Positions 37,522 through 55,017 of a stretch of DNA of 64,000 nucleotides are shown in pieces; position 1 is the first letter of the stretch; each line of letters opens with the position of its first letter. This DNA comes from Brasilonema sp. UFV-L1. Lineage in GTDB: Bacteria; Cyanobacteriota; Cyanobacteriia; Cyanobacteriales; Nostocaceae. The position numbers were made by a program, and so were the translations under genes. The notes below the pieces were generated by a model, which made no database searches, was not told where the DNA came from, and worked only from the letters and a program-made list of their open reading frames with translations. The DNA lies in assembly GCF_012912105.1 (NCBI RefSeq), contig NZ_QMEA01000018.1, positions 1-64,000 of the forward strand, read 5' to 3'.

Positions 37522-38484
37522 CTAAACAGTAAACATGTCTTCTTCAGCCCAAGTGGGTACCATGTTCTTTGCGACAACGGTAAGAAAGGCATAATCTTGT
37601 CTGTTCATTCCTGGTGGTATATCTTTGGGAACTCCCATGAGGGTTTGCGTTTTAAAGACTGTTCCAGGTGCGAGGTCATAGAAGGGGAATTCAGGTTCAG
37701 TACAGCCTATGCAAGGCATTCCAGCACGGGTTTTTGAGGAAACGCGATTCCACAAGATACGGTTGCAGGAAGAATGGGTCATTGGACCGCGACAACCTAA
37801 GTCGTAGAATAAACATCCTTTGCGCTGACCAAATTCAGCAACGGATGCTTTGTAGGCAAAGTGGATGTTACGGGTACAGCCTGTTTGTGTAAAACTTTTG
37901 AAAAATGTTTGTGGGCGATGGAATTCATCAAGAGTTATATCAGTAAGACGTCCTGTGGCGATCGCCACTAATATTTGACTAATCCAATCAGGATGTGCAG
38001 GACATCCAGGAATATTGATAACTGGAAGCCCTGCTTTTGATACGTACTCTGTTCCTAAAAAACCACCTTTTTGCCGTTTGAGAAATTGCAATCCCTCTGA
38101 CTCACTTGGATTAGGTGCAGTGGCGGGGATTCCTCCCCATGTCGCACAATCTCCCACTGCGACAACAAAGTTGGCAACTTTTGAAAGGTCAAGTAACCAA
38201 TCTTTCATGGGACGTTCAGCAAACCGATTCCAGTGACCAGTCCCATTGGGGGCGTTAACTACTGTACCTTCAAATACTAAGATATCTAAAGGAATTTTGC
38301 CTGAAATACAATCCCACAAAAGTGCTTGTAAGTTTTCACCTAGTTCTAACCCTAAAGATGGATGCCAAAGAATTTTAATTCCAAAATCAGCAATTAAATC
38401 ACAGACGGTAGGTTCTTCGGCATTCAGAAAAGATATGGTGTTACCTGAACAAGCACCACCTTGTAACCATAGTACGTTAGTCAT
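37522..38484 (-). CDS. hupS: [NiFe] uptake hydrogenase small subunit, orphan second copy
   Basis: A protein of 320 residues, full length for cyanobacterial HupS and without a Tat signal, as usual there. The iron-sulfur cluster ligands are all visible: LQGGACSGNT, VGDCATWGG, NIPGCPAHPDW, TGCTRNIHF, KGCLFYDLGCRGPMT and CIGCTEPEFPF. It would carry electrons from the NiFe site in HupL. It is an intact paralogue of the hupS next to hupL (roughly 78 percent identical by eye) but has no hupL behind it. A GTA-N8-TAC site lies 56 bp upstream. It may replace the other HupS in HupL complexes under some conditions. Confidence 0.93.
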   Translation of the reverse strand: MTNVLWLQGGACSGNTISFLNAEEPTVCDLIADFGIKILWHPSLGLELGENLQALLWDCISGKIPLDILVFEGTVVNAPNGTGHWNRFAERPMKDWLLDLSKVANFVVAVGDCATWGGIPATAPNPSESEGLQFLKRQKGGFLGTEYVSKAGLPVINIPGCPAHPDWISQILVAIATGRLTDITLDEFHRPQTFFKSFTQTGCTRNIHFAYKASVAEFGQRKGCLFYDLGCRGPMTHSSCNRILWNRVSSKTRAGMPCIGCTEPEFPFYDLAPGTVFKTQTLMGVPKDIPPGMNRQDYAFLTVVAKNMVPTWAEEDMFTV

Positions 38485-38539: not shown

Positions 38540-38553
38540 GTATAAACAGATAC
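38540..38553 (-). promoter_or_regulatory. Candidate NtcA binding site upstream of the orphan hupS
   Basis: GTATAAACAGATAC is a perfect GTA-N8-TAC palindrome, the consensus of the nitrogen regulator NtcA, 56-69 bp before the hupS start. NtcA sites also drive hupSL in other heterocystous strains. A clean -10 box at the ideal 22-base spacing is not obvious, which lowers confidence. Confidence 0.55.
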
Positions 38554-39404: not shown

Positions 39405-39641
39405 ATGACAGATTTACTGACAAGCTTAATAGTAGGTGATATTAATCTCATCACCGGATTGATATTGCTAGTAATAGCAACTCTTTTATCTGTTGTTGGT
39501 GGTGCTATTGGTGGCATGATGTTAGCTGGTAAGGAATTTGGTTATCAGTTTTCCGCCATGCTTGGTGGGTTATTAGCTCCTGCTGGTGTCATTCCAGTCG
39601 TGATTTTAGGACTCGTTATACTGAAGGTTCTCACAAATTAA
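39405..39641 (+). CDS. Small membrane protein, hydrogenase-linked (copy A of pair)
   Basis: A protein of 78 residues with two hydrophobic helices (TGLILLVIATLLSVVGGAIG and LLAPAGVIPVVILGLVILKV) around the motif GGMMLAGKEFGYQFSAMLGG. It is homologous to the protein at 45624-45890 in this window and, as I recall, to asr0689 of Nostoc PCC 7120, the first gene of the extended hyp operon. It is followed after 12 bp by its usual partner. A role in maturation or membrane attachment of the uptake hydrogenase is inferred from context only. Confidence 0.8.
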   Translation: MTDLLTSLIVGDINLITGLILLVIATLLSVVGGAIGGMMLAGKEFGYQFSAMLGGLLAPAGVIPVVILGLVILKVLTN

Positions 39642-39653
39642 CTAGGAGGAATT

Positions 39654-39878
39654 ATGTTTCAGCTTGGGTGGTTTTCTGCTCAGTTATTTTTCAAAGGTAA
39701 GTTAATACGTGACCCTGTGCATTTTGTACAACAAACTGCAATTGGTACTAGCATAGGCTCACTATTATTAGTGTTATTGGCATTTGTGAAACTACCCTTG
39801 TTATTATCAGTTGCAATTTCTAGCTTAGTCACAGGTACAATGATGCCATTTCTCCTAAAAGACTTCAAAATGAAGTAG
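39654..39878 (+). CDS. Small membrane protein, hydrogenase-linked (partner, copy A)
   Basis: A protein of 74 residues beginning MFQLGWFSAQLFFKGKLIRD, then two hydrophobic helices and the end MMPFLLKDFKMK. AGGAGGAATT gives a near-perfect ribosome binding site before the ATG. It is a paralogue of the gene at 45899-46123 and resembles asr0690 of the Nostoc extended hyp operon. The conserved amphipathic start with Lys/Arg-Asp could contact a soluble partner. The two small genes are always adjacent here, suggesting a complex. Confidence 0.8.
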   Translation: MFQLGWFSAQLFFKGKLIRDPVHFVQQTAIGTSIGSLLLVLLAFVKLPLLLSVAISSLVTGTMMPFLLKDFKMK

Positions 39879-39884
39879 CTTAGC

Positions 39885-40012
39885 CAAAATCAATGAACAA
39901 TGAACAATGAACAGTTATCAATGAACAACGAGCAATGAGCAATGAACAATTATCAAATCGATAATTGATAACTGATAACTGATAACTGATAATTGATAAT
40001 TGACAATTGATT
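39885..40012. repeat. Tandem heptamer repeats (CAATGAA, ATAACTG types)
   Basis: Copies of AACAATG and variants run from 39891 to about 39950, then TGATAACTGATAACTGATAA arrays to about 40010. These are simple short tandem repeats common between cyanobacterial genes and fill most of the gap before the NifU-like gene. Confidence 0.8.
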
Positions 40013-40070
40013 GGTCACAAGTGCTGAGTCCTGAGTAAAACTTTAAGGAATCTATCCTGCGAATTGAACA

Positions 40071-40553
40071 ATGACCGATGACACACTTGAAGAATTAGTC
40101 AAAGAAATCAGCCGTTATGAGGCAATTATTTCTGAATGGGATGAAACCCACAGGGGTGTCGTTGTAGGTCTAAAACGAGCTATTGAAACGTTGCATAAAG
40201 AAGCATTAACACGTTTAATTAAAACTGTGAAGCAAGAATCCATGCCAGCTCTACGTAGTGCTGTTAAAGACGAAGTTGTGTATGGAGTTTTGCTTTATCA
40301 CGAACTCGTAAAGCCTCCTAAACCACCACTAGCGCAACGTATTCAGCAAGCGCTTGATGAAGTGCGTCCAGGTTTGAAAAGCCACAATGGCGATGTAGAA
40401 TTAGTGAATATTAAACCACCGGATACAGTTGAAGTCAAATTAATTGGAGCTTGTGGTAATTGTCCAGCTTCAACTTTGACTTTATCTCAAGGAATTGAGC
40501 AAGCAATTAAGTCGTATTGTCCGGAAATTGTGAATGTGGTTGCGCTACATTGA
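40071..40553 (+). CDS. NifU C-terminal-domain protein linked to the hydrogenase locus
   Basis: A protein of 160 residues. The N-terminal half is a helical domain (LEELVKEISRYEAIISEWDE...ALTRLIKTVKQE); the C-terminal half is an NfU domain with SHNGDVELVNIKPPDTVEVK and the cluster-binding CGNC in LIGACGNCPASTLTLSQGIE. NfU domains carry and deliver 4Fe-4S clusters. A homologue, alr0692 as I recall, sits in the extended hyp operon of Nostoc. A natural client is HupS, which needs three Fe-S clusters. It converges on hupL, with a terminator hairpin between them. Confidence 0.87.
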   Translation: MTDDTLEELVKEISRYEAIISEWDETHRGVVVGLKRAIETLHKEALTRLIKTVKQESMPALRSAVKDEVVYGVLLYHELVKPPKPPLAQRIQQALDEVRPGLKSHNGDVELVNIKPPDTVEVKLIGACGNCPASTLTLSQGIEQAIKSYCPEIVNVVALH

Positions 40554-40581
40554 CGACGGTTGCATGAACAGCTGTCAACCT

Positions 40582-40612
40582 TAAGCCCTATGTCTGAAAA
40601 ACATAGGGCTTA
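40582..40612. terminator. Bidirectional hairpin between the NifU-like gene and hupL
   Basis: TAAGCCCTATGT (40582-40593) and ACATAGGGCTTA (40601-40612) form a perfect 12-bp stem with loop CTGAAAA in the 90-bp gap between two convergent stop codons. No long T-run follows, but the position fits transcript termination for both genes. Confidence 0.7.
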
Positions 40613-40643
40613 GCCAGTGTCAAATGAATTAACAGTACACAAC

Positions 40644-42239
40644 CTACGCAGTACGAAAACGTGCCAACTCTTTACCTGTCTTGGCATCATGGGCGTGAAC
40701 AGTACAAACCAGACACGAGTCAAACGATCGCGCCACATGACCCACTTCCACTGGATCAGTCGAGTCGTAAATCGGTGTCCCGACTAAAGCCTCTTCAATT
40801 GGTCCACGTATTCCTTCTGCGTCACGCGGTCCAATATTCCAAGTACTAGGTGCCATAATTTGGTAATTCTTAATCTTACCGCCCTCAATCTCTAACCAGT
40901 GACACAACGAACCTCGCGCTGCTTCTGTTGCACCCCAACCGCGTCCATCTTTTTCTTTGGGTTTGATATACCAAGGGTCATTAAGACGAAACTCGCGTAA
41001 GCAGCGTTCTGCTTGTCTATATAACTTGACAATTTCGTGAACTCGTGCAATCTGTCGTAGATGAATACTGGCACCACCCATTTGCCTGAATGCATCTAGG
41101 ATAAACCCGTCGAAATGCTGCCAAGACTCTCCATGTTTACCACCCGCGACTAACTGACGTGCGAGTGGTCCTGCTTCCAAACGTCCTAAGTCTTTGTGAC
41201 GGACAGCTGATGACCAAGAGTACCGTCCTTTGAAGTCTTTGGCATTATTTTGGCTGGGTTTTGTTGTGCGATCGTAAGGGTGAATATCTGATGTTAGTTC
41301 CTCATACCAGGAGTGAGTTGTATTTTCCCGGACGAAAGTCTGATCCATAAGAGTGTGGGTGTCGGTGAAACTGTCGTAAACTCCACTCTTCATAATCAAG
41401 GCAGAATTTCGTCCTTCTATTGTTGGCTTCTGGTATTTTGCTTCATGAGGTAAATATCCCCAACTGACATATCGACCTACACCAGCACCATATTTATCCA
41501 AACCAATATCTAAACCCATGCGCCAGTAAAAACCTAAGTCAGAATTGGCATGACTTGGGCTTTCATCTAGCCACACCATGAAGTCATTATAGGTCTTGAT
41601 TTCTTCATAGCGTTCTAAAGAACAACCTAACCACACAGGTTCTAACCAATTGGTGCGGAAATATTCCAGAATTGACCACGCGCGGGTGACATCTGTTAAA
41701 GTTGGGGCACACATCACGCCACCAGGAACCATGTAGCTAGAATGGGGCCATTGACCACCAAATAAGGCGTAAATTTCTACAGGTTTGGCAGAAATTGTGA
41801 TGCCAAGTTCGTAAGATTTACCAGTAAAAGCAGCAAAGCGTCTGCAAGCTTCTAGATAATAAGGGCTATACCGATACTTTTTATTAGTCAAATCTATTGC
41901 AAATAGACCATAAAAGTAGCGGGGTATGCTTTGGATTGATTCGACAATTTGACCTAAGTTTCTTGCCAAAATTGCATTACGCGGGACTTCTGTTCCCCAG
42001 GCGGTATCTAATGCCCAAGCTGCACTTGTCAGGTGAGAAGCACCACAAATACCGCAAACGCGAGGTGTGACGATTAATCCTGCTTGGGGGTCTTTCCCGC
42101 GTAGGATAACTTCAAATCCTCGAAAGAGTTCAGCATGTGTCCAAGCATTGACGACGTGTCCATCTTCTATTTCCACTCGGACATCTAAATCGCCTTCTAC
42201 TCTCCCGACTGGGGATATGTCTAATGTTTGAATTCCCAT
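40644..42239 (-). CDS. hupL: [NiFe] uptake hydrogenase large subunit
   Basis: A protein of 531 residues from ATG 42239 (AGGA upstream; an ATG at 42260 would add seven). The nickel ligands are in RVCGICGASH near the N-terminus and DSCLVCTVHAH near the C-terminus. The tail after the last His (AHDAKTGKELARFRTA) is the extension removed by a specific protease after nickel insertion. It oxidises H2 released by nitrogenase. The gene is uninterrupted, so there is no hupL excision element as in Anabaena PCC 7120. It follows hupS after 202 bp, most of which is a MITE-like insert. Confidence 0.96.
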   Translation of the reverse strand: MGIQTLDISPVGRVEGDLDVRVEIEDGHVVNAWTHAELFRGFEVILRGKDPQAGLIVTPRVCGICGASHLTSAAWALDTAWGTEVPRNAILARNLGQIVESIQSIPRYFYGLFAIDLTNKKYRYSPYYLEACRRFAAFTGKSYELGITISAKPVEIYALFGGQWPHSSYMVPGGVMCAPTLTDVTRAWSILEYFRTNWLEPVWLGCSLERYEEIKTYNDFMVWLDESPSHANSDLGFYWRMGLDIGLDKYGAGVGRYVSWGYLPHEAKYQKPTIEGRNSALIMKSGVYDSFTDTHTLMDQTFVRENTTHSWYEELTSDIHPYDRTTKPSQNNAKDFKGRYSWSSAVRHKDLGRLEAGPLARQLVAGGKHGESWQHFDGFILDAFRQMGGASIHLRQIARVHEIVKLYRQAERCLREFRLNDPWYIKPKEKDGRGWGATEAARGSLCHWLEIEGGKIKNYQIMAPSTWNIGPRDAEGIRGPIEEALVGTPIYDSTDPVEVGHVARSFDSCLVCTVHAHDAKTGKELARFRTA

Positions 42240-42300
42240 TTGTTTTTTATCCTGTGTCATTTGTGCTTTGTGCTTTGAATGAATGCTAATGATTAATGAC

Positions 42301-42430
42301 TACTCCCTTCTCGCCAGAAGAATACTTAAACGAACCGCAAAGACGCTTTAGCGTAGCGTGCGCCCTTGGCGCATAGGACACAAAGGAAGAAAAAAAGAAG
42401 ATAAGTAATCTTAGACCACTCAAGGGAGTA
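42301..42430 (-). repeat. MITE-like element, copy A (in the hupS-hupL spacer)
   Basis: 130 bp bounded by TACTCCC (42301) and GGGAGTA (42424-42430). Its reverse complement aligns with the elements at 50441 and 58254: TAAGATTACTTATCTTC near one end and GGTTCGTTTAAGTATTCTTC near the other. The middle is a variable palindromic block (GCGTGCGCCCTTGGCGCATAG). The 5-bp direct repeat ATGAC flanks it exactly, which looks like a target duplication. No coding capacity. Confidence 0.8.
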
Positions 42431-42441
42431 ATGACTAATGA

Positions 42442-43404
42442 CTAAACTGTGAAAAAGTCATCTTCTGCCCAATGAGGCATTGTGTCTTTCGCCACGATTG
42501 AAAGTAAGGCATAATCTTTCTTGTTCACTCCTGTGGGCAAGTCTTTGGGAACCCCCATGATGGTTTGCGTCTTAAATACGGTTCCTGGCTTGAGGTCGTA
42601 GAAGGGAAATTCAGGTTCAGTACAACCTAAACAAGGCATTCCAGCGCGGGTTTTCGAGGAGACGCGGTTCCACAAAATGCGGTTGCAGGAGGAACGAGTC
42701 ATTGGTCCGCGACAACCTAAGTCGTAGAACAAGCATCCTTTACGTTGACCAAATTCGCTTGTTGATGCTTTGTAAGCAAAGTGGATGTTGCGGGTACAAC
42801 CTGTTTGGGTATAGGTGTTGAAGAAGGTTTGTGGACGATGCAACTCGTCAAGGACAATATCGCCAATTCTATTGGTGGCGATCGCCACTAATATCTGTGT
42901 CATCCAATCCGGATGGGCGGGACATCCAGGAATATTAATCACGGGTAATCCCGATTTTGTCCGAAAATCTTTTCCTAAAAAGCCTCCTTCTTTCCGTTTG
43001 AGAAATTGTAATCCTTGAGATTCACTGGGGTTAGGTGACATGGCGGGAATTCCTCCCCAACTTGCACAGTCTCCCACTGCGACTATATAGTTAGCAACTT
43101 GGGATAGATCGCTTAACCAGTCTTTCATAGGGCGTGAGGCAAAACGGTTCCATTCTCCAGTCCCGTTGGGTGCGTTGACAACTGTGCCTTCAAAGACCAA
43201 AATATCCAAGGAAATCTTGCCCAAAAGACATTCCCAAAGTTTTGTCTGCAAGTTTGTACCTATTTCCAGTCCTAAAGATGGATGCCAAAGGATGTTTATA
43301 CCAAAGTCAGTCACCAAATCGCAAGCCGTGGGTTCTTCAGCGTTAAGAAATGACATGGTGTTGCCCGAACAAGCACCACCTTGCAGCCATAGTAAGTTAG
43401 TCAT
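42442..43404 (-). CDS. hupS: [NiFe] uptake hydrogenase small subunit, hupL-linked copy
   Basis: A protein of 320 residues starting MTNLLWLQGGACSGNT, with every iron-sulfur ligand block present (VGDCASWGG, NIPGCPAHPDW, TGCTRNIHF, KGCLFYDLGCRGPMT, CLGCTEPEFPF). It pairs with HupL as the electron-transfer subunit of the uptake hydrogenase. As the upstream gene of hupSL it is probably the canonical copy. A GTG directly before the ATG is an unlikely alternative start. By eye I find no perfect GTA-N8-TAC site in the 400 bp upstream, unlike the orphan copy. Confidence 0.95.
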   Translation of the reverse strand: MTNLLWLQGGACSGNTMSFLNAEEPTACDLVTDFGINILWHPSLGLEIGTNLQTKLWECLLGKISLDILVFEGTVVNAPNGTGEWNRFASRPMKDWLSDLSQVANYIVAVGDCASWGGIPAMSPNPSESQGLQFLKRKEGGFLGKDFRTKSGLPVINIPGCPAHPDWMTQILVAIATNRIGDIVLDELHRPQTFFNTYTQTGCTRNIHFAYKASTSEFGQRKGCLFYDLGCRGPMTRSSCNRILWNRVSSKTRAGMPCLGCTEPEFPFYDLKPGTVFKTQTIMGVPKDLPTGVNKKDYALLSIVAKDTMPHWAEDDFFTV

Positions 43405-44499
43405 CACCTATCTTTTTTTCTATTGTTGACCAAAACTAAGGGTGTAGGGGTGTAGGGGTGTAGGGGTGTAGGGAGGAAGAGGGGATTTTCTTTTTAGTAC
43501 ACCTTACCCTGGAACAGAGGGGGACCCCGCCCCCACTAAATCTTTGATCTAGTGGTGACCCCAAGCCCCCACTAATCACATCCCTTATACCCTTACACCC
43601 GTGACCCCCCTAGTTCAGTGACTCTGCATGATTCAGGAAACGTGATTTGTAGCGCCTCAACTATATTTGTCATATCATGTATTTTTTTATTCAACTGTTT
43701 ATTGTTTACATAAAGTTTTACTTGTTTGAATATAAATTTAGTCATTTTTTGAGCAAATGGTTAACCAATAACATTTTTATTTGATAATTAGAGATAAGAT
43801 GATGCCAATATCTACAGCGCGTTGCACTGAAGTAAAATACAGTGCCTAGACCAAAAAGCCAGACTCTAAGCCCTTTTTACACCAATTTGAAAAAAGAATG
43901 CGACACATACACATTCCCAAACCCAAGTTTCGTCTCGGCTTTCTTCATTTTGAATTTTGAATTTTGAATTTTGAATTGGTATTACTTCTGTCCCTTGTGC
44001 GTGCCCTCTGGGCATATTCTGACTCCTGCTGTATGTTCTAAAATCTTAATTATATTTCTGATCAGGTTTCATTTTGTCAATCAACTATCCATGACATAAA
44101 ATCAAGATTTTGACAATCGTTTCGTCATTGAAATCTGAGAGAATTCTCAATGTAATTTCAAAAAAACTTATATAAATAAATAACAAAAAAGTCTATTTTT
44201 TTCAAGTCATGTGTTCTATATTAAAAGAGAAGAGACATAGTAAATTAAAGGAGTATTTATCAGTTTTCCAGCAAAAGTACTGAACGCTTAACATCGCCCT
44301 TACCCGCTTTTCTCTTCAAGCCTCTGATTTCAAGGGAACTCAAGCGCCTAATTTTGCCAAGAGGGGATTTACCGGGACACAACTCATCATCTGCGTAAAT
44401 AAGCTTGGTTGGTACAGCCCAAAGACACAAGGAATATGCGTTTTGAGGGTGTGCGGACTTGAAAGACTCAATTCTCCAACCTGCGATAGGAAGATGGTA
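43405..44499. other. 1.1-kb gap upstream of hupSL with short tandem repeats
   Basis: No gene is supported. It holds four GGGTGTA heptamers (43439-43473), C-rich and G-rich stretches to 43620, a TTTTGAA heptamer array (43947-43977), and AT-rich sequence that should contain the divergent hupS and TPR-gene promoters. TGTTTATTGTTTACA (43697-43711) is a loose dyad. Confidence 0.55.
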
Positions 44500-45474
44500 A
44501 TGACCCCCAGCATGACAGATTCAGCTGTGAAGGTGGCAATGGATATTATTGCTTCATCTCCAGCAACAACGCAAGAAAAAATCGAGATGCTGCTTGAAAT
44601 GGCGCAGGGCTTTCAGAAAAAGCCAAAAACTGCCCAAGATTTATGGAATGCAGTTTCGCTATGTCACCAAGCATATGATTTGTGTGATGAGGATAACTTG
44701 TTGTGGCAAGCTAGGGCAAAGGTAGGAATCGCAGTTGCTTTAAAGGCTATTCCTGATATTGGGGAACAACTGTTGTTAGAAGCAAAAGAACGATTAGAAG
44801 AAGCGCTACCGATTTTGCAACAGACACTTGTTTCACCAGAAGAAATCGCAGAAGCCCAAATGAATTTTGGGTTAGTCTTGCAGTCGCTTGTTCCATTTCA
44901 TTTGGCGCGAATGACGGATAGTATCCAAGCTTATCAGAAAGCTTTGCAAGTCTTTACCTGGCAGAAGTACCCGCAGGAATATGCGATTTTACACAACAAT
45001 ATTGCAATTGCTTACCTCTCGACGCCCTTGACATCACAAAGAGAAGATTTGCGTCAAGGGTTAGCAGTGCAGACATTTGAGGAAGCGCTGAAGCATATTG
45101 AATTGATCAGCCATCCCAGGGAATATGCGATGTTGCAGAATAATCTGGGTAATGCTTTGCAATATCTACCGAGTTCTCATCCTTTGGAGAATATTGTGCG
45201 GGCGATCGCCGCTTACAACGAAGCGTTAAAAGTGCGTAACTCCAAAGATACGCCTCTGGAATACGCCAACACAATTTCTAACAAAGCCAACGCCTTATTG
45301 AACTTACCGGATGAACCGGAAAAACCGGAAGCCGGGAATCTCAAAAATCTCTTGCAAGCGCGTGCTTATTATCAAGAAGCTTGGGAAATTTTCACTCAGC
45401 ATGGACAAATAGAACAAGCGCAAGTTGTGGCACAGGTTTTGCAAGAAGTTGAGACAGAAATCGGTAATGCTTAG
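44500..45474 (+). CDS. TPR-type protein of the extended hyp operon
   Basis: About 324 residues from ATG 44500, with AGGAAG six bases upstream; longer starts are unsupported. The protein is nearly all helical, with TPR-like pairs such as EYAILHNNIAIAYLSTPLTS, EYAMLQNNLGNALQYLPSSH and EYANTISNKANALLNLPDEP. It likely acts as a protein-protein scaffold. Its place before the small membrane pair, the NHL protein and hypF matches the gene order I recall for Nostoc PCC 7120 (alr0691), where these genes are thought to help hydrogenase small-subunit maturation. Confidence 0.8.
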   Translation: MTPSMTDSAVKVAMDIIASSPATTQEKIEMLLEMAQGFQKKPKTAQDLWNAVSLCHQAYDLCDEDNLLWQARAKVGIAVALKAIPDIGEQLLLEAKERLEEALPILQQTLVSPEEIAEAQMNFGLVLQSLVPFHLARMTDSIQAYQKALQVFTWQKYPQEYAILHNNIAIAYLSTPLTSQREDLRQGLAVQTFEEALKHIELISHPREYAMLQNNLGNALQYLPSSHPLENIVRAIAAYNEALKVRNSKDTPLEYANTISNKANALLNLPDEPEKPEAGNLKNLLQARAYYQEAWEIFTQHGQIEQAQVVAQVLQEVETEIGNA

Positions 45475-45623
45475 TGGTTTTTAAATACAAACAACCACTC
45501 TCAAGAAACACAGGGGTGTAGGGGTGTAAGGGAAAACATGTTTATTTCATTCGTAACGGGTTGCAACGCCCCCCGTTAAGTGCTGACAAGCAACAAATAA
45601 CAATTTTTATTCTTGAGATGATA

Positions 45624-45890
45624 ATGACAGACCTTTTGACAAATCCTATTTTAAGAGATTTCTTCACAAGCTTCATGGCTGGTGACTTGAATCTGATGAC
45701 AGGATTTGTGTGGTTTTTACTAGCAACAGCCTTATCTATGATTGGCGGTGCAATTGGCGGAATCATTTTAGCTAAAGAAGATTTAGGCTATCAGTTAGCT
45801 GCACTTCTTGGTGGATTTTTTGGTCCGGCTGGCGTCATTCCTGGAGTTGTCTTAGGGCTAATCATCTTGAATGTGTTGAGAAATTTCTAG
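45624..45890 (+). CDS. Small membrane protein, hydrogenase-linked (copy B of pair)
   Basis: A protein of 89 residues from ATG 45624 (MTDLLTNPILRDF), chosen because its paralogue at 39405 starts with the same MTDLLT; an ATG at 45618 is two codons upstream. Two hydrophobic helices flank GGIILAKEDLGYQLAALLGG, and PAGVIPGVVLGLIILNVL ends the protein. It carries an insertion of about nine residues near the N-terminus relative to copy A. The partner gene follows after 8 bp. Confidence 0.8.
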   Translation: MTDLLTNPILRDFFTSFMAGDLNLMTGFVWFLLATALSMIGGAIGGIILAKEDLGYQLAALLGGFFGPAGVIPGVVLGLIILNVLRNF

Positions 45891-45898
45891 GAGGAATC

Positions 45899-46123
45899 AT
45901 GTTAGAGATAGGATGGTTCACTGCTAGACTATTTTTTCAAGGAAAGCTACTGCGCGATCCGATGCAGTTTGTCAAGCAAACTGCAATTGGTATTAGCATA
46001 ACTGTACTTATATTGTTCTTACTTGCACAAGTTCAAGTGAGTCTTTGGATACCAGTTGTCGTCTCTAGCTTTCTGACTGGTCTAGTTATGCCATTTCTAC
46101 ATAAAGACCTCAAATTAAAATAA
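45899..46123 (+). CDS. Small membrane protein, hydrogenase-linked (partner, copy B)
   Basis: A protein of 74 residues beginning MLEIGWFTARLFFQGKLLRD and ending VMPFLHKDLKLK, the same length as its paralogue at 39654-39878 and about half identical. The AGGAGGAATC ribosome binding site is strong. Two helices (SITVLILFLLAQV and LWIPVVVSSFLTGLV) suggest a membrane protein with both ends on the same side. It lies directly upstream of the NHL-repeat gene and hypF. Confidence 0.8.
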   Translation: MLEIGWFTARLFFQGKLLRDPMQFVKQTAIGISITVLILFLLAQVQVSLWIPVVVSSFLTGLVMPFLHKDLKLK

Positions 46124-46508
46124 GTTATGAGCTTTATTAGTCTTAAAATAAATTTAAGACTCAAAGCTAAAACTTGTTTGAACTGAGTCCGCCAAGGATG
46201 ATACCATTTTGGATTTTAGATAATGGAATTGGGAATTGCTTTGTGTGTCTGAGTTCTGTCAATCCATTTGTCGCAATCATTTTTAAAATTGGTGTTAAAA
46301 ACCCCTGGCTGATAGTGTAAGTTCTCGCGCATACGACTAAATATCTGCTCATCAGATTTTCAGTCCATTTTAATGGACTTAATCTATTAGCCTGGAACTT
46401 TAGTTCTAGGCGGGGAAACTGGTTAATAAGTTTCAACTAACTTAAGCTTTTACCTTCAGAAATATTTGAGGCTTATCAAAGCAGTATTTCTTGATTCAAA
46501 ATTCACTC
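46124..46508. other. Gap between the small membrane pair and the NHL-repeat gene
   Basis: No gene is supported; a minus-strand frame of 89 codons at 46167-46436 has no ribosome binding site and a composition like non-coding DNA. CAGATTTTCAGTCCATTTTAA and nearby sequence show no clear regulatory site. The gap may separate two transcripts. Confidence 0.45.
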
Positions 46509-47789
46509 ATGAACACAGCAACTAAAATGACTATCACACCAAAAGATGCAACAGAAGCGGCAAAAGTTTCCCAACTTTTACCTTTTTTGCCTCAAGGTGC
46601 AGAAGTTATTTTAGGAAAGACTTTTGAGGTGAGTCAACTAGTAACACCTGTTGTACCCAGCAGTAGAGAAATGTTTGGTCCTCGTGGTGCTTGTTTAATA
46701 TCTGAAAGTGGACCATTGTGGGTATCAGACACAGGACATCATCGTTTATTAGGATGGCGAAATTGTCCGACTCAAGATAGTCAACCTGCTGATTGGGTGA
46801 TTGGACAACCAGACTTTAACCATGAAGGACAAAATGCCAAAGGTAGTCCTGGAAGGACTACATTAAGTGTCCCAACTGGAATCTGTGCTTGTGGTGAAGG
46901 TTTAGCAGTTGCAGATGCTTGGAATCATCGGGTTTTGATTTGGAAAAATTTGCCAGAAGATAGCAATGTTCCAGCAGATTTTGTATTAGGTCAAACCTAT
47001 TTCACTGACAATGAACCAAACAGAGGAACTCAACAAGCAGCAGCAAATACTTTGAACTGGTGTTACGGAGTTTTCTATCATCAAGGAAAGCTATTTGTTG
47101 CTGATACAGGAAACCGTCGGGTTTTAATTTGGCATCAATTACCTGAAGAAAATGGTCAGCCGGCTGATGTTGTTTTGGGACAACCTTATATGATGTCCCG
47201 CGATGAAAATGGCGGCGGTACTCCTTCAGTATCGAGTATGCGTTGGTGTCATGATATCACTGTTTGGGGAGAAAATTTAGTTGTCACTGATGCGGGTAAT
47301 AACCGCGTGATGATTTGGCAGGGTATACCAACAGAAAACAATACTCCTTGTGCAGTGGTATTAGGACAGAAAAACTTTGATTCAGTTGAAATGAATCAAG
47401 GAGTTTATTTTCCTAGTGCTAATAGTTTGAGTATGCCTTATGGTGTTGCTGCTGCTGACGAGTGGTTGTTCGTTACAGATACAGCTAATTCAAGAATTTT
47501 AGCCTGGAAAAAGCCAGAATCTATTCTGTCTTTGCACGGAAGCGAAAGTCATGCAGTTGCTGGACAAAGAGACTTTAAAAGTAAAGGTGAAAATCGTGAT
47601 TTTGGTCTACCGAAACGAGATAGTTTGAATTGGTCGTATGGAATAAAAGTGTGTGGAAACACTGCGGTTATAGCAGATTCAGGAAATAATCGAGTCTTAG
47701 TTTGGAAGATAACTACGAAAGAACGGGCTGTGCCCTTGCACTCTACAGCAACTCCTGAATTAGAACACAGAAGAAGTTTTCTCAGGTAA
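46509..47789 (+). CDS. NHL-repeat beta-propeller protein of the extended hyp operon
   Basis: About 426 residues from ATG 46509 (MNTATKMTITPK). Six or so NHL-like blades repeat the pattern VADTGNRRVLIWH, VTDAGNNRVMIWQ, VTDTANSRILAWK and IADSGNNRVLVWK, each followed by a VLGQ element. There is no signal peptide or membrane helix. Beta-propellers bind proteins or nucleic acids. A homologue (alr0693 as I recall) lies just before hypF in Nostoc PCC 7120. Its place suggests a role in hydrogenase assembly. Confidence 0.85.
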   Translation: MNTATKMTITPKDATEAAKVSQLLPFLPQGAEVILGKTFEVSQLVTPVVPSSREMFGPRGACLISESGPLWVSDTGHHRLLGWRNCPTQDSQPADWVIGQPDFNHEGQNAKGSPGRTTLSVPTGICACGEGLAVADAWNHRVLIWKNLPEDSNVPADFVLGQTYFTDNEPNRGTQQAAANTLNWCYGVFYHQGKLFVADTGNRRVLIWHQLPEENGQPADVVLGQPYMMSRDENGGGTPSVSSMRWCHDITVWGENLVVTDAGNNRVMIWQGIPTENNTPCAVVLGQKNFDSVEMNQGVYFPSANSLSMPYGVAAADEWLFVTDTANSRILAWKKPESILSLHGSESHAVAGQRDFKSKGENRDFGLPKRDSLNWSYGIKVCGNTAVIADSGNNRVLVWKITTKERAVPLHSTATPELEHRRSFLR

Positions 47790-47901: not shown

Positions 47902-50436
47902 ATGTCTACTGAAGAAATCATCAGGGTTCGCGGTATCGTTCAGGGAGTGGGATTCCGCCCCACTGTATATAGACTTGCAAAAGCATACGGGTTGCAAGGC
48001 AAAGTTTGTAATGACGGTCAAGGTGTCCTCATTTGGGTATCTGGCTGTGAAGAATCTATAGAAGAATTTGTCCAAAAATTACAGAAAGAGTGTCCGCCAT
48101 TAGCGAGAATTGATGAAGTAACGCGCAAGCGTTATGAAGGCAAATCTGGCTTTGGTGATTTTGTCATTTCTCACAGTATCAGTAGTGCGGTGAAAACAGA
48201 AATTCCTGCTGATGCTGCGACTTGTCCAAAATGTAAAGCGGAAATTTTTGACCCCTTCAGCCGCTGGTATCGTTATCCCTTCACGAACTGTACTCATTGC
48301 GGTCCCCGCTTAAGTATCATTCGCGCCATACCTTATGATCGCCGCAACACAAGTATGGCTGCTTTTGCTATGTGTGCAGAGTGTGAAACGGAATACAAAG
48401 ATGTTGAAAACCGTCGTTTTCACGCCCAACCCGTAGCGTGTCACATTTGCGGTCCTAAAGTTTGGTTAGAACGTTCTGATAGTAAACCAATTACATCCCA
48501 TATGTTTTCTATGCTTGACGATATTGACGCCGTTTGTACCTTATTACAAAAAGGCGAGATTGTTGCTATTAAAGGTAATGGTGGATTTCATCTCGCTTGC
48601 GACGCAACTCAGGAAAGTGCTGTGCAAAAATTGCGCGATCGTAAACAGCGCAATCAAAAACCTTTTGCTTTAATGGCAAAAGACATATCAGTTATTGAAG
48701 AGTACTGCACCCCTAACGCGAAAGAAAAAGAATTGCTGGAAAGTTCCGCCGCGCCTGTTGTGTTAATTCAGGCGAAAGGGGGAGACGATGAAGAAGAAAG
48801 GGGAAGTGGGAGAATACAATTCAAAATTCGTCTTGAAAAGTTTGCTACGGAGGGAAACCCTCCTGGCAACTTTTCGCAAAATTCAAAATCGCGTAGCGTC
48901 CGAACCGTGGAGAAGAATCTAATTCAAAATTCAAAATTCAAAATTCCTCCTATAGCCTCTTCGGTTGCACCTGGGCAAAATACTTTGGGTTTCATGTTAC
49001 CTTATACTCCATTACACCACCTCATTCTCAGGCGAATGAATCGCCCGATTGTTTTCACGAGTGGTAATCTTTCTGATGAACCGCTATGTATTGATAATGT
49101 CGAGGCGCGTGAGAAGTTAGAAAAGATTGCTGATTATTTTCTTCTGCACAATCGGGAGATTGTGAACCGAGTTGATGATTCGGTGGTGAGGGTTGTTGGT
49201 GATAAAGTCCTAACAATCCGTCGTGCTAGAGGATACGCACCGGTTCCGATCAATTTACCACCTGGATTTGAAAGCGTTCCTCACATTCTAGCAATGGGTA
49301 GTCAGCTAAAGAATACTTTTTGTTTATTGCGAGAAGGAAAAGCAATTCTCTCTCAACATATAGGAGATTTAAAAACTGCAGCGACTTTCAAATCTTATCA
49401 GGATACGCTCAATATCTACTTAAATTTATTTGAGCATCAACCAGAAGCGATCGCCGTTGATTTACATCCTGAATATCTCTCAACAAAACTTGGAAAAGAA
49501 CTTGCACACGCTAATCAGTATGGACACGGCACAGCCGTGCCCTTACTCCACATCCAACATCATCATGCTCATATTGCTGCCTGCATGGCAGAAAATGACA
49601 TAAATATTAATTCACCACCTGTTTTAGGTATTGCATTAGATGGATTGGGTTACGGTGAAGATGGAACGTTATGGGGCGGAGAATTTCTGTTAGCAGATTA
49701 TCGCCAGTTTAAGAGATTGGCGACATTTAAGCCAGTACCAATGATTGGTGGAACACAAGCAATGAGAGAACCCTGGCGTAATACCTACGCCCAGTTAATA
49801 TCTGCCTTTGACTGGAAAGATTTCAAACAAAAATACAGAAATTTAGAAATTTTAGATTTTCTAGAACAAAAGCCTCTAAAACTTCTCAATCAGCTTGTTG
49901 AAAAAGGAATAAACGCTCCCTTGACTTCATCAGTAGGGCGTTTATTTGATGCTGTCGCTGCTGCAATTGGTATCTGTAGAGAACAATGTAGCTATGAAGG
50001 ACAAGCAGCCATTGAAATGGAAGCTTTGGTTAATACTAGTTTATTAAAAAAAATATTAAACAATAAAGAATATTTAAATTATTCTTTTAACTTTCTTGTT
50101 TCAGATAATATTTATCATATAGATTCACAGCAAATGTGGCAAGCCTTGCTGAATGACTTACAGCAGCATACTCCTCCAGCAGTTATCGCTGCGAAATTTC
50201 ATACAGGTTTAGCTCATTCTATTGTAGAAATGGTTAATAACCTGCGTCAAAGAAATGACATTCATCAAGTTGTCCTCACAGGAGGAGTTTTTCAAAATTG
50301 TATTCTGTTAAAACAAGTTACTGAAGGCTTACAAGCATTAGGGATAAATGTACTGACTCACAGTTTAGTTCCAGCTAATGATGGTGGTTTATCGCTAGGA
50401 CAAGCTGTGATTGCAGCTGCAAAAGTCAAAAGTTAA
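47902..50436 (+). CDS. hypF: Carbamoyltransferase HypF with an in-frame repeat insertion
   Basis: HypF makes the thiocarbamate on HypE that becomes the CN ligand of the NiFe site. Domains in order: acylphosphatase (RGIVQGVGFRPTVYRLA), two zinc fingers (CPKCKAEIFDPFSRWYRYPF, CAECETEY...CHICG), a YrdC domain (about 210-390) and a Kae1-like carbamoyltransferase domain with HHHAHIAAC and VVLTGGVFQN. At 844 residues it is about 60 longer than usual. The extra residues, about 290-350, are encoded by dispersed repeats and replace a short linker before PIASSVAPGQNTLGFML. The insert keeps the frame, so the protein is probably still functional. Confidence 0.95.
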   Translation: MSTEEIIRVRGIVQGVGFRPTVYRLAKAYGLQGKVCNDGQGVLIWVSGCEESIEEFVQKLQKECPPLARIDEVTRKRYEGKSGFGDFVISHSISSAVKTEIPADAATCPKCKAEIFDPFSRWYRYPFTNCTHCGPRLSIIRAIPYDRRNTSMAAFAMCAECETEYKDVENRRFHAQPVACHICGPKVWLERSDSKPITSHMFSMLDDIDAVCTLLQKGEIVAIKGNGGFHLACDATQESAVQKLRDRKQRNQKPFALMAKDISVIEEYCTPNAKEKELLESSAAPVVLIQAKGGDDEEERGSGRIQFKIRLEKFATEGNPPGNFSQNSKSRSVRTVEKNLIQNSKFKIPPIASSVAPGQNTLGFMLPYTPLHHLILRRMNRPIVFTSGNLSDEPLCIDNVEAREKLEKIADYFLLHNREIVNRVDDSVVRVVGDKVLTIRRARGYAPVPINLPPGFESVPHILAMGSQLKNTFCLLREGKAILSQHIGDLKTAATFKSYQDTLNIYLNLFEHQPEAIAVDLHPEYLSTKLGKELAHANQYGHGTAVPLLHIQHHHAHIAACMAENDININSPPVLGIALDGLGYGEDGTLWGGEFLLADYRQFKRLATFKPVPMIGGTQAMREPWRNTYAQLISAFDWKDFKQKYRNLEILDFLEQKPLKLLNQLVEKGINAPLTSSVGRLFDAVAAAIGICREQCSYEGQAAIEMEALVNTSLLKKILNNKEYLNYSFNFLVSDNIYHIDSQQMWQALLNDLQQHTPPAVIAAKFHTGLAHSIVEMVNNLRQRNDIHQVVLTGGVFQNCILLKQVTEGLQALGINVLTHSLVPANDGGLSLGQAVIAAAKVKS
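48818..48947 (+). repeat. Dispersed palindromic repeat inserted in frame in hypF
   Basis: The first 72 bases (48818-48889) are identical to 54891-54962. The core is a hairpin, GAAAAGTTTGC...GGAGGG, AAA, CCCTCC...GCAACTTTTC, flanked by ATTCAAA heptamers; an ATTCAAA array closes the insert (48921-48947). It encodes part of the extra linker of HypF. Confidence 0.9.
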
Positions 50437-52489: not shown

Positions 52490-53497
52490 TCATTGACATT
52501 TCTCGCCAGTTGATAAAGCCAACTGAATGGCAGCAATTCTCCCTTTCAAAATCGATATACTGCTGGAATCTATTCTGAAATGAAAAACCATTATTTTTTC
52601 TGACTGAGGACTACACTGACGTACATATTTTTCAACTCGTTTGTCAACGCAAACAACATCAAATTCTGACAAAAATTGAGGATTTTTCTGAAGATTATCT
52701 AAATCTAGAGTTTGAAAAATTATATGAGAAATACCAGCCAACTCCAGCATCCGTTTGATTTCTTCACTATCCGCTTTTGACCGACTCACAACTAGCATCT
52801 TTGTGTGACGAGGTTTTGACGAAATCTGTGTCAGAAGTTGTATATCTGGCTTGAGATTAACTGTAATGACTTCCTGTTCGGGAGAAGATAATTGAATAAC
52901 TTCCGATTGATATTCTGCTGTCGTAATTATAATATGAGCAGTCAACAATTCCTTCAAAACTGTTGGCTCATGAGCTTTGAAATCTTCCAAGCTGATTCTT
53001 AATACAGGAAGTCCTATTTCTAATTGAATGGCTTCATATGCATCTATATCATGTTGGAAGCATTCTATAAATACTAACTTTAAAGGGTATGGTTGATGCT
53101 GACTCAATCTCACAGCTTGTGCGTATGCAGCCACACCGAATTCAGATGGAGATAATCCGACTGTTGCTGCAGCACTAAAGGCTTGACTTAGCAGATTGTA
53201 AAATTCCTTGTGGATAATAATATCTTGTACAGCTTGGGTGTGAGCAACAAAAGTTCCTTTCCCTCTAGTTGCTACCAGATAACCAGATTCAATTAAAAAG
53301 TTATAAACTGCAGCAATCGTGTTGTGATTGACTCCTAAATGTTTGGCTAATTGAGTCACAGTTGGTAAAGTATTACCTGGCTGTAGTTCTCCAATAGCGA
53401 TTAGTAATTTAATCTGTTCAACAATCTGAGCATTAATTGTTATCGGTGCTGAGTTATCAATAGTAATTGGAAGCCAAACGGGAACAGAGAATACCAT
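52490..53497 (-). CDS. GntR-family transcriptional regulator
   Basis: A protein of 335 residues. The N-terminal winged helix reads INAQIVEQIKLLIAIGELQP, LPTVTQLAKHLGVNHNTIAA and VYNFLIESGYLVATRGKGTF, the GntR signature, with an effector domain after residue 90 (FGVAAYAQAVRLSQHQPYPL and later). The short linker and N-terminal type suggest the YtrA/HutC side of the family. It is opposite in direction to hyp genes and divergent from the FAD monooxygenase gene, which is its likely target. A perfect inverted repeat lies in the gap between them. Confidence 0.87.
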   Translation of the reverse strand: MVFSVPVWLPITIDNSAPITINAQIVEQIKLLIAIGELQPGNTLPTVTQLAKHLGVNHNTIAAVYNFLIESGYLVATRGKGTFVAHTQAVQDIIIHKEFYNLLSQAFSAAATVGLSPSEFGVAAYAQAVRLSQHQPYPLKLVFIECFQHDIDAYEAIQLEIGLPVLRISLEDFKAHEPTVLKELLTAHIIITTAEYQSEVIQLSSPEQEVITVNLKPDIQLLTQISSKPRHTKMLVVSRSKADSEEIKRMLELAGISHIIFQTLDLDNLQKNPQFLSEFDVVCVDKRVEKYVRQCSPQSEKIMVFHFRIDSSSISILKGRIAAIQLALSTGEKCQ

Positions 53498-53561
53498 ATG
53501 GATAGACAGAAGTGATTACGAATTATCCTTCATCGGTGAGTTGACTGGTATTGATATTATA

Positions 53562-53581
53562 CTGTTTTAGTAAAAAAACAG
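53562..53581. promoter_or_regulatory. Inverted repeat between gntR and the monooxygenase gene
   Basis: CTGTTTT (53562-53568), six bases, AAAACAG (53575-53581) is a perfect 7-bp inverted repeat in the 188-bp divergent region, a plausible operator for the GntR protein. It lies 65 bp before one start and 104 bp before the other. Confidence 0.45.
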
Positions 53582-53685
53582 ATTATCCAGGACAGAATTC
53601 TTCTGAGTTGTTGAGTTCTTTGTTGGTCACTTTCAATGGTAGAGTCAAACCTGTAGACTTTGACCAAGTGACATAAACTCTACAG

Positions 53686-54909
53686 ATGCATCTCCATGCA
53701 AGTCAAAGCGGACATCCACAACAGAACTCACGACGCCCTCGCGTCCTTATTGTAGGTGGTTCAATGGGTGGTTTATGTGCAGGGTTAGCGCTGCATTGTA
53801 TCGGTTGTGATGTAGAAATTTTTGAACGCGCCTCCTACCAAGAGATAACGCTTACCCCTGGTGGTGTGCAAAGTCGCGGTGCTGGTTTGATTGTGCAGAT
53901 GGAAATCAATCGGTTTCTTGCAGAACATAATATTACGACAGCACAAGCACTGGGTGTGACTTCGTGGAAGAGACAATACATAACTGGAGATGGAACCATA
54001 ATTTGGGAAGAATCAACACCTCAACTCATGACTTCTTGGGATATCCTGTATCGTCAACTGCGGAAAGTTTTCCCAGAGGAACGTTATCATCAAGGCAACA
54101 ATGTCATTGGTTTTGAGCAGAATGACGACTGCGTGGTGGTGCATTTTGAAGACGAACGGGAAGAAAAATGTGATTTACTCATTGGGGCTGACGGTATTGA
54201 TTCAACGATACGTCAGCAACTGATACTAAATGCTATGCCTCAGTATGCAGGCTATGTTGCATGGCGAGGACTAATAGATGAAAATGTTCTTTCATCAGAC
54301 GTTGCAAAATTCTTTGCCGATAAATTCACCTTCTTTAACGGACCAAGCATGCAAGCTTTATGCTATCTGGTACCCGGACCAAACGGGGAGTTAGACGAAG
54401 GAAAACGCCGCCTCAACTGGCTTTGGTACTTTAATGTCCCAGATGGCGAACAGTTGAATGCAGTCATGACTAACCACCAAGGACAACTACGAAAATTTTT
54501 CATGCCTCAAGGAGAGGTTCGCCAAGAAGTTGTCCAACAGATGAGAGTATTAGCAAAGACATATTTACCAGAAATTTTTCAATATCTATTTGAACTGACA
54601 GAGAAACCCTTTATTCAACCCATCTACGACTTATCTGTACCACGTATGGTTTTTGGACGGGTATGTTTAATTGGCGATGCTGCATTTGTCGTTCGTCCTC
54701 ACACGGCCGCAGGGACTTCTAAAGCTGTGACAAATGCTATTGAACTCGCGCAAGAGTTACAGGAATCTGGCGGTGATGTGATAGGGGCGCTAGAAAAATG
54801 GGAACCAATTCAGTTAGCGATGGGGAATTACCTTAAGGCTTTGGGAATTACTCTGGGAAATCGTTCTAGATTAGGTCACCCCCTCCGGGGAATTCAAAAT
54901 TCGTCTTGA
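53686..54909 (+). CDS. FAD-dependent aromatic monooxygenase
   Basis: A protein of 407 residues. The FAD-binding Rossmann motif is VLIVGGSMGGLCAGLAL at residue 20, with GADGIDSTIR and GDAAFVVRPHTAAGTSKAV later, the DG and GD motifs of flavin hydroxylases. Closest remembered types are 2,6-dihydroxypyridine and related N-heterocycle hydroxylases. With a tautomerase and a GntR regulator next to it, an aromatic degradation step is plausible. The C-terminus (GIQNSS) is read from a dispersed repeat, so the natural tail has been replaced or extended. It splits hypD from hypE. Confidence 0.87.
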   Translation: MHLHASQSGHPQQNSRRPRVLIVGGSMGGLCAGLALHCIGCDVEIFERASYQEITLTPGGVQSRGAGLIVQMEINRFLAEHNITTAQALGVTSWKRQYITGDGTIIWEESTPQLMTSWDILYRQLRKVFPEERYHQGNNVIGFEQNDDCVVVHFEDEREEKCDLLIGADGIDSTIRQQLILNAMPQYAGYVAWRGLIDENVLSSDVAKFFADKFTFFNGPSMQALCYLVPGPNGELDEGKRRLNWLWYFNVPDGEQLNAVMTNHQGQLRKFFMPQGEVRQEVVQQMRVLAKTYLPEIFQYLFELTEKPFIQPIYDLSVPRMVFGRVCLIGDAAFVVRPHTAAGTSKAVTNAIELAQELQESGGDVIGALEKWEPIQLAMGNYLKALGITLGNRSRLGHPLRGIQNSS

Positions 54910-54970
54910 AAAGTTTGCTACGGAGGGAAACCCTCCTGGCAACTTTTCGCAAAATTCAAAATTCAAAATT
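54891..54970 (+). repeat. Dispersed palindromic repeat at the 3' end of the monooxygenase gene
   Basis: The 72 bases at 54891-54962 are identical to the hypF insert (48818-48889), with the GGAGGG/CCCTCC hairpin and flanking ATTCAAA heptamers. The monooxygenase stop codon lies within it at 54907-54909. Confidence 0.9.
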
Positions 54971-55017
54971 ATCAATTCCACGGATGAATCCGCTAAAATA
55001 ATCAAACAGAATTTAGA

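Follow-up and report, generated by a model that had tools for sequence, protein, structure and literature searches.

How the uptake hydrogenase HupSL of cyanobacteria is attached to the membrane, and by which route its electrons reach the quinone pool, has been described as little known (PMC6616624). The same source calls the enzyme membrane-bound with no transmembrane part, probably held via a third subunit or other contacts. The question is raised by a stretch of 64,000 nucleotides from Brasilonema sp. UFV-L1 (contig NZ_QMEA01000018.1, positions 1 to 64,000 of the forward strand; the window in what follows), which carries two genes for the hydrogenase small subunit, hupS and a second, d-type copy termed hupS′, together with two pairs of genes for small membrane proteins. 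We name the first gene of each pair A (asr0689 family) and the second B (asr0690 homologue); genomes and loci used for comparison are numbered with G and L respectively. We propose that A and B are the cognate membrane partner of HupS, most likely its stable docking subunits and probably its anchor, a reading to which we assign a probability of about one half.

The d-type pair consists of A1 (39405..39641, forward strand, 78 amino acids) and B1 (39654..39878, forward, 74 amino acids), and the main-type pair of A2 (45624..45890, forward, 88 amino acids) and B2 (45899..46123, forward, 74 amino acids). As a preliminary description made from the sequence had reported, all four reading frames are present and both members are paralogous, with 55% identity over 78 amino acids between A1 and A2 (E 2e-24) and 58% over 74 between B1 and B2 (E 3e-30); gene order and close spacing are kept (12 bases in the first pair, 8 in the second), and AGGAGG stands just 5′ of both second genes (39644-39649 and 45889-45894). 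The layout likewise agrees with that description: A1B1 lies beside an orphan small-subunit gene, hupS′ (37522..38484, reverse strand; intact, 320 amino acids, no hupL adjoining), and A2B2 in the hyp run. The main hupS (42442..43407, reverse; ATG at 43404, GTG at 43407) encodes a protein 81% identical to HupS′ over 320 residues, and both match Pfam PF01058 and PF14720. hupS and A each occur twice in this genome, A with two NF052670-type matches; hupL (40644..42260, reverse) is its sole HupL gene (one match at E ≤ 1e-6). A1 and A2 score 110.6 and 110.5 bits as whole proteins against NF052670, above the curated cut-off of 95. B1 and B2 match no Pfam or NCBIfam family above cut-off, and for none of the four proteins was a Pfam family or a PHROGs match found.

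The presence of the pair was profiled across three genome sets, with A alone as its marker; the sets overlap, so their counts are not to be summed, and a Fisher value calculated for the co-occurrence disregards relatedness and is given no weight here. Within the order, A and hupS are found together in 115 of 388 genomes and hupS never occurs without A. A without hupS is confined to two incomplete genomes (G348 and G357, 85% and 79% complete), so that the many pairs without hupS which the preliminary description had named as the damaging observation were not seen. A matches in 118 genomes of the order and hupS in 115, the former count including a match in G010 (21.5 bits) that was set aside as chance, as was a second match in G121 (24 bits). 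In the class set, the same 22 of 271 genomes have A and hupS, neither gene occurs alone, and seven of the 22 lie outside the order. The third set, the genomes of 59 of the 80 named loci, was chosen through hupS and therefore tests only whether A accompanies hupS; A is present in 58 of these 59 genomes, hupS in all 59. On locus DNA, B adjoins A in 84 of 85 A matches; only the cut-short A of G376 lacks a neighbouring B.

Of the 115 genomes of the order with both genes, 74 have A within 15 kb of a hupS and 24 have it on a separate contig; in the remaining 17 the two share a contig but are separated by 34 kb to 2.2 Mb, and some of the smaller of these gaps may be interruption elements. Since A and hupS co-occur at such distances, physical linkage is not the whole reason for their co-occurrence. 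Two of the 17, G275 and G287, are genomes of only 1.4 and 1.5 Mb that have kept both genes about 400 kb apart.

The pair also follows hupS in number. Two divergent A copies are present in ten genomes: the window's own (G000), G191, G321, G359, G389 (taken as Brasilonema bromeliae SPC951), G393 (taken as Scytonema tolypothrichoides VB-61278), G397 (Calothrix membranacea), G398 (Nostoc linckia FACHB-104), G399 (Nostoc carneum) and G688 (Mastigocoleus sp. MO_188.B34). Two hupS accompany them in every case, with a truncated copy in G321; the expectation that two pairs occur only with two hupS was thus borne out. In the window's genus the numbers of A and hupS agree in seven of seven genomes. G376 departs from the rule, with a single hupS but two A, the second of them cut short; from its sister G321 we infer that it formerly had a second hupS. 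G689, outside the ten, has A and hupS in duplicate, the copies scoring equally and lying on separate contigs, which is probably due to assembly. The gene for a NifU-like protein that accompanies the pair is single in five of the nine two-copy genomes tested (G000, G191, G321, G389 and G393); the window's genome has one close match (E ≤ 1e-25), and no second copy of the accompanying TPR gene was found within the window.

To the match in number is added a match in ancestry. Trees were built for HupS and for A plus B from the 80 of 94 modules for which the DNA examined contains A as well as B, by a quick method with SH-aLRT support only; L118, L121 and L124 were left out as repeats, L114, L127, L130 and L132 as hupS pieces, and the short loci L001-L032 were also kept out of the trees. 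The window's hupS′-A1B1 module groups with those of L033, L034 and L113 (support 100 for HupS, 98 for A plus B), and its main module forms a separate clade with relatives (94 and 100). Similarly, the second modules of G191, G321 and G359 join those of L061, L067 and L097 in both trees (HupS 97; A plus B 86, inner branch 99), and their first modules are placed elsewhere in both. For each two-copy genome we also correlated the identity differences of HupS with those of A plus B to all other modules; r was positive in ten of ten, at 0.43-0.94, where a swapped pairing would give the same values with a minus sign. Several of the ten share one second lineage and are thus not independent, and the genes are linked; the agreement of trees and correlations therefore shows co-inheritance, not contact.

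The second module is old, because synonymous divergence (dS) between hupS and hupS′ is about 1.2 (Nei-Gojobori) and the two modules fall into separate clades in both trees. On the same two results we rejected a recent tandem duplication of one cluster. The earlier statement that the pair was duplicated together with hupS stands as co-inheritance, of modules that are old.

Losses followed the same lines. In L033 and L034 an intact hupS′ is flanked by a hupL remnant in which codons 2-28 and 512-538 are joined out of frame (L033:10991-11147, L034:4759-4915), with an identical junction in two species, B. bromeliae and S. tolypothrichoides; the second module therefore once had its own hupL. No such remnant was found in the window. 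G391 (96% complete, 4% contamination) has hupS′ and a complete hupL together on one contig, and a second contig bears A1B1 and the NifU-like gene; its main hupS site holds a 38-codon fragment with two stops, and A2B2 is absent between the TPR and NHL genes. The TPR gene, which lies between the lost parts, survives, so that at least two deletions were needed to reach an end state of one hupS and one matching pair. G388, G390 and G392 have the main module only, and the NifU-like gene lies elsewhere in G390 and G392. In G376 the second hupS and B are gone along with part of A, and the TPR, NifU-like and NHL genes are kept. The second locus of G688 (L133) is hupL-hupS-A-B only: within about 6-8 kb of it, on 18 kb of DNA, no NifU-like, TPR, NHL or hypF gene was found. 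The pairs thus follow hupS closely, the NifU-like and TPR genes less closely.

The second copies do not look like genes in neutral decay, as far as Nei-Gojobori estimates on short genes can tell. Pairwise dN/dS (the ratio of non-synonymous to synonymous divergence) is 0.03-0.15 among hupS′ orthologues and 0.06-0.12 for the main hupS, and 0.11-0.31 for A1 and B1 among orthologues. We rejected the view of hupS′ as a decaying copy: it is intact, has the same 11 Cys positions as hupS, and gives a dN/dS of 0.15 for L033 versus L034, after the loss of hupL. HupS′ would then work with a shared HupL.

The predicted structures of A and B are those of small membrane hairpins, modelled with moderate confidence. 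AlphaFold2 gives A1 two helices, 15-41 and 47-77 (mean pLDDT 83.6), and B1 an N-terminal helix (2-13), two further helices (21-44 and 49-67) and a basic tail (mean pLDDT 77.5). Invariant residues are Gly33, Ala34, Gly37, Gly46, Gly54 and Pro64 in 64 A sequences, and include Leu11, Gly15, Lys16 and Arg19 in 65 B sequences. Both ends of B carry positive charges, which suggests that both face the cytoplasm. No column of A holds His or Cys in ≥ 10% of sequences, and B has no conserved column of either (at most 11/80 His and 27/80 Cys); binding of haem or of iron-sulphur (FeS) clusters by the pair is therefore unlikely. Group 1 hydrogenases have cytochrome b anchors, HupC or HyaC, as membrane partners of the small subunit. 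A and B, as proposed here, resemble these in partnership but differ in having two long helices each and no conserved haem-ligand histidines. In profile searches of the PDB, A had no match, and neither the A nor the B profile matched a Huc chain at E ≤ 1, the presence of the HucM chain in the searched set being unconfirmed; a weak match of B to ATP synthase protein 8 (E 0.034) was judged to be chance.

HupS itself is most like the small subunit of an enzyme with direct access to quinone. Its best PDB match is HucS of the Mycobacterium hydrogenase Huc (7uur/7utd), over the full length and with E 1.8e-153; Huc we take to be of group 2a. Cyanobacterial Hup is assigned to group 2a as well (PMC5186783). 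The menaquinone head group of Huc makes contact with the backbone of Lys212 and with Tyr229 and Tyr301, all in HucS (PMC10017518). By a printed alignment, in which the chain is numbered one lower than in the paper, these correspond to HupS Lys212, Tyr227 and Tyr298, which are kept in 93 of 94 HupS sequences, HupS and HupS′ of the window included; the exception is the truncated copy of G321. HucM, a protein of 188 amino acids whose C-terminal part is a coiled-coil stalk, is peripheral to the membrane (PMC10017518). Like the role proposed for the pair, it brings a HucS-type small subunit to membrane quinone; unlike HucM, A and B are predicted to be integral hairpins.

A Huc-like enzyme needs access to the membrane, not a cytochrome b, and a haem-free hairpin pair equal to HupS in number and ancestry fits the gap in what is known of HupSL attachment. 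From these patterns we infer physical binding, anchoring, a quinone route and pairing of HupS′ with HupL, as follows. A and B would form a small four-helix membrane platform, on which the conserved basic N-terminal part of B, facing the cytoplasm, would bind HupSL, which itself carries neither a signal peptide nor an anchor. HupS, itself HucS-like, would use the electrons of H2 to reduce membrane quinone directly at its distal-cluster site, with no haem b subunit. In the window, two modules would coexist, hupS with A2B2 and hupS′ with A1B1; since HupL is present once here, as are the NifU-like, TPR, NHL and Hyp proteins, it would also be the partner of HupS′. More tentatively still, the cyanobacterial uptake hydrogenase might be a quinone-reducing HupS-HupL-A-B complex of Huc type, held by two haem-free hairpins, and some cyanobacteria may have two small-subunit and anchor sets sharing one HupL. 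If this is true, a single large subunit is common to two distinct enzymes, both bound to the membrane. The pattern suggests that mix-and-match small subunits exist. The pair offers two named, deletable genes that track HupS in presence, number and ancestry, and thus a direct test of how HupSL is attached; this is of relevance to attempts to raise H2 yield by crippling HupSL.

We put docking no higher than one half because a HupS-specific membrane assembly factor fits the gene pattern nearly as well. A and B would then load or protect the FeS clusters of apo-HupS, or help it to join HupL, and leave. Such a role is favoured by the operon, which the pair shares with genes for NifU-like and TPR proteins, by the co-transcription of these genes with the hyp genes in Nostoc 7120 (PMC2408588; PMC3126725) and by the chaperones acting on one small subunit that are known from other bacteria (PMC3126725). 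The soluble candidates for the same task, however, track HupS less strictly than the pair does. Besides being single in five of nine two-copy genomes, the NifU-like gene seems dispensable, as no alr0692 homologue was found in the genomes of L090, L094, L095 and L063 (E 1e-20) or in G388 (E 1e-25), though all have hupS and A; the TPR gene outlived the lost module in G391 and G376; and the second locus of G688 does without the likely soluble assembly genes. Nor would loading of FeS clusters obviously need a membrane hairpin. We therefore hold an assembly role to be possible, on the doubtful side. The preliminary description had suggested that each pair might anchor or mature its own HupS: the tie to HupS stood up in copy number, co-occurrence and ancestry, and between the two roles sequence cannot decide.

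Two other explanations leave more unaccounted for. If the pair were a small transporter or channel, it might carry nickel, iron or some other solute and be called on only during HupSL production. That would suit small glycine-rich membrane hairpins, and an ABC transporter was the guess made for the pair in 2008 (PMC2408588). Yet no transporter family was found for the window proteins (Pfam, NCBIfam), for 64 A sequences (Pfam) or for 65 B sequences (NCBIfam); the A sequences gave weak DUF4013 and Yip1 matches alone and no ABC domain, and a transporter need not match each HupS in number and ancestry. We consider it improbable, and rate lowest of all the notion that the pair is functionally unconnected with HupS and was copied, moved and lost as a mere neighbour. 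Proximity in 74 of 115 genomes is what this would predict, but the co-occurrence holds in the 17 genomes with wide separation on one contig, small genomes among them, and in G391 pair and hupS were lost by separate deletions.

Several observations weigh against docking subunits, or against the rules on which we base them. A dedicated assembly factor would yield the same gene pattern, and co-inheritance of neighbouring genes alone would give some agreement of trees. The contrast between the pair and its accompanying genes is not clean: the NifU-like gene is double in four of the nine two-copy genomes (G359, G397, G398 and G399), and the TPR gene is also double in G191 and in G359, where one copy is partial. 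A Rhizonema metagenome-assembled genome of the named-locus set (G692) has hupS without A; G371 has a single A, yet at the end of a contig it shows part of a second hupS; and in G321 both pairs persist even though the second hupS breaks off after about residue 256. hupS′ lacks an intact hupL of its own in three two-copy genomes. Finally, neither model has a fold match at E ≤ 1, the lowest Foldseek E-values being 6.9 for B and 4.6 for A, and accordingly we claim no fold relative.

The pair had been called undescribed, which did not hold. It corresponds to asr0689/asr0690 of Nostoc PCC 7120, described in 2008 and 2011 as part of the ′extended hyp-operon′ of that strain and N. punctiforme (PMC2408588; PMC3126725), and A has an NCBIfam model. 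Those papers suggested maturation of the small subunit for the gene group and announced mutants. In family, order and setting the window's pairs agree with asr0689/asr0690, small proteins with two transmembrane segments encoded between hupSL and hyp; they differ in that there are two, one per hupS, one of them beside an orphan hupS and the NifU-like gene. Table 5 of PMC2821919 gives asr0689 and hupS an identical list of genomes lacking them, and the streamlined genome CS-505 has kept hupSL and asr0689, with alr0692 and alr0693 absent. A 2016 survey found hupS and hupL clustered in all genomes it analysed (PMC5186783). The pair also recalls the small-subunit maturation proteins HupGHIJ/HoxOQ, whose genes likewise lie between structural and hyp genes and are tied to the small subunit, but in 2008 a BLAST search of cyanobacteria yielded no HupGHIJ orthologues (PMC2408588) and the window pairs match no Pfam family. 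A search of the literature by locus tag, with most subscription journals outside its reach, gave PMC2408588, PMC3126725 and PMC2821919 alone and no functional test of asr0689/asr0690, and the available parts of PMC6462935 and PMC4463661 hold nothing on the pair. For a second or orphan hupS, the literature search listed a single paper, on Kyrpidia. As far as these searches show, the rule of one pair per HupS in copy number and ancestry, with co-loss, looks new.

The remaining genes of the window complete the layout of the extended hyp-operon, in which A and B lie between hupSL and hypF beside TPR, NifU-like and NHL genes. Around A2B2 the order is TPR-A-B-NHL-hypF: the TPR protein gene (alr0691 homologue; 44443..45474, forward) gives a weak TPR_12 match below cut-off and holds the same position in many relatives, the NHL-repeat protein gene (alr0693 homologue; 46491..47789, forward) matches PF01436 (E 2.2e-21), and hypF (47902..50436, forward; 844 amino acids, named by eye), the first hyp gene of the run, has homologues at the same place in many relatives. 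The gene for the NifU-like C-terminal domain protein (alr0692 homologue; 40071..40553, forward; PF01106, E 8.5e-25) adjoins A1B1 instead. With regard to NtcA control, a mark of the extended hyp-operon, promoter scans of the gaps found one GTA-N8-TAC match, at 38540 in the hupS′-A1 gap, whereas the corresponding gap in L033 and L034 contains none; the scans found no DIF motif, and TGT-N9/10-ACA occurred as loose patterns in most scanned gaps, too weak to use.

At several loci hupS is split after about codon 13-20 (L135/L136, L137/L138, L139/L140, L127/L128 and L130/L131), the short piece lying beside TPR-A-B and the remainder about 19-77 kb off or on another contig. A hupS interruption element, of the type surveyed in PMC4874684, would be expected to leave this pattern. 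Between hypD and hypE of the window (52490-54909) lie genes for a GntR-like regulator and an FAD monooxygenase-like protein, both named by eye. Residues 306-338 of HypF (window 48817-48915) match 54890-54988 at 70% over 33 amino acids, and HypF of the relatives L084 and L107 aligns in two pieces flanking this part, which may be an in-frame insert derived from a repeat.

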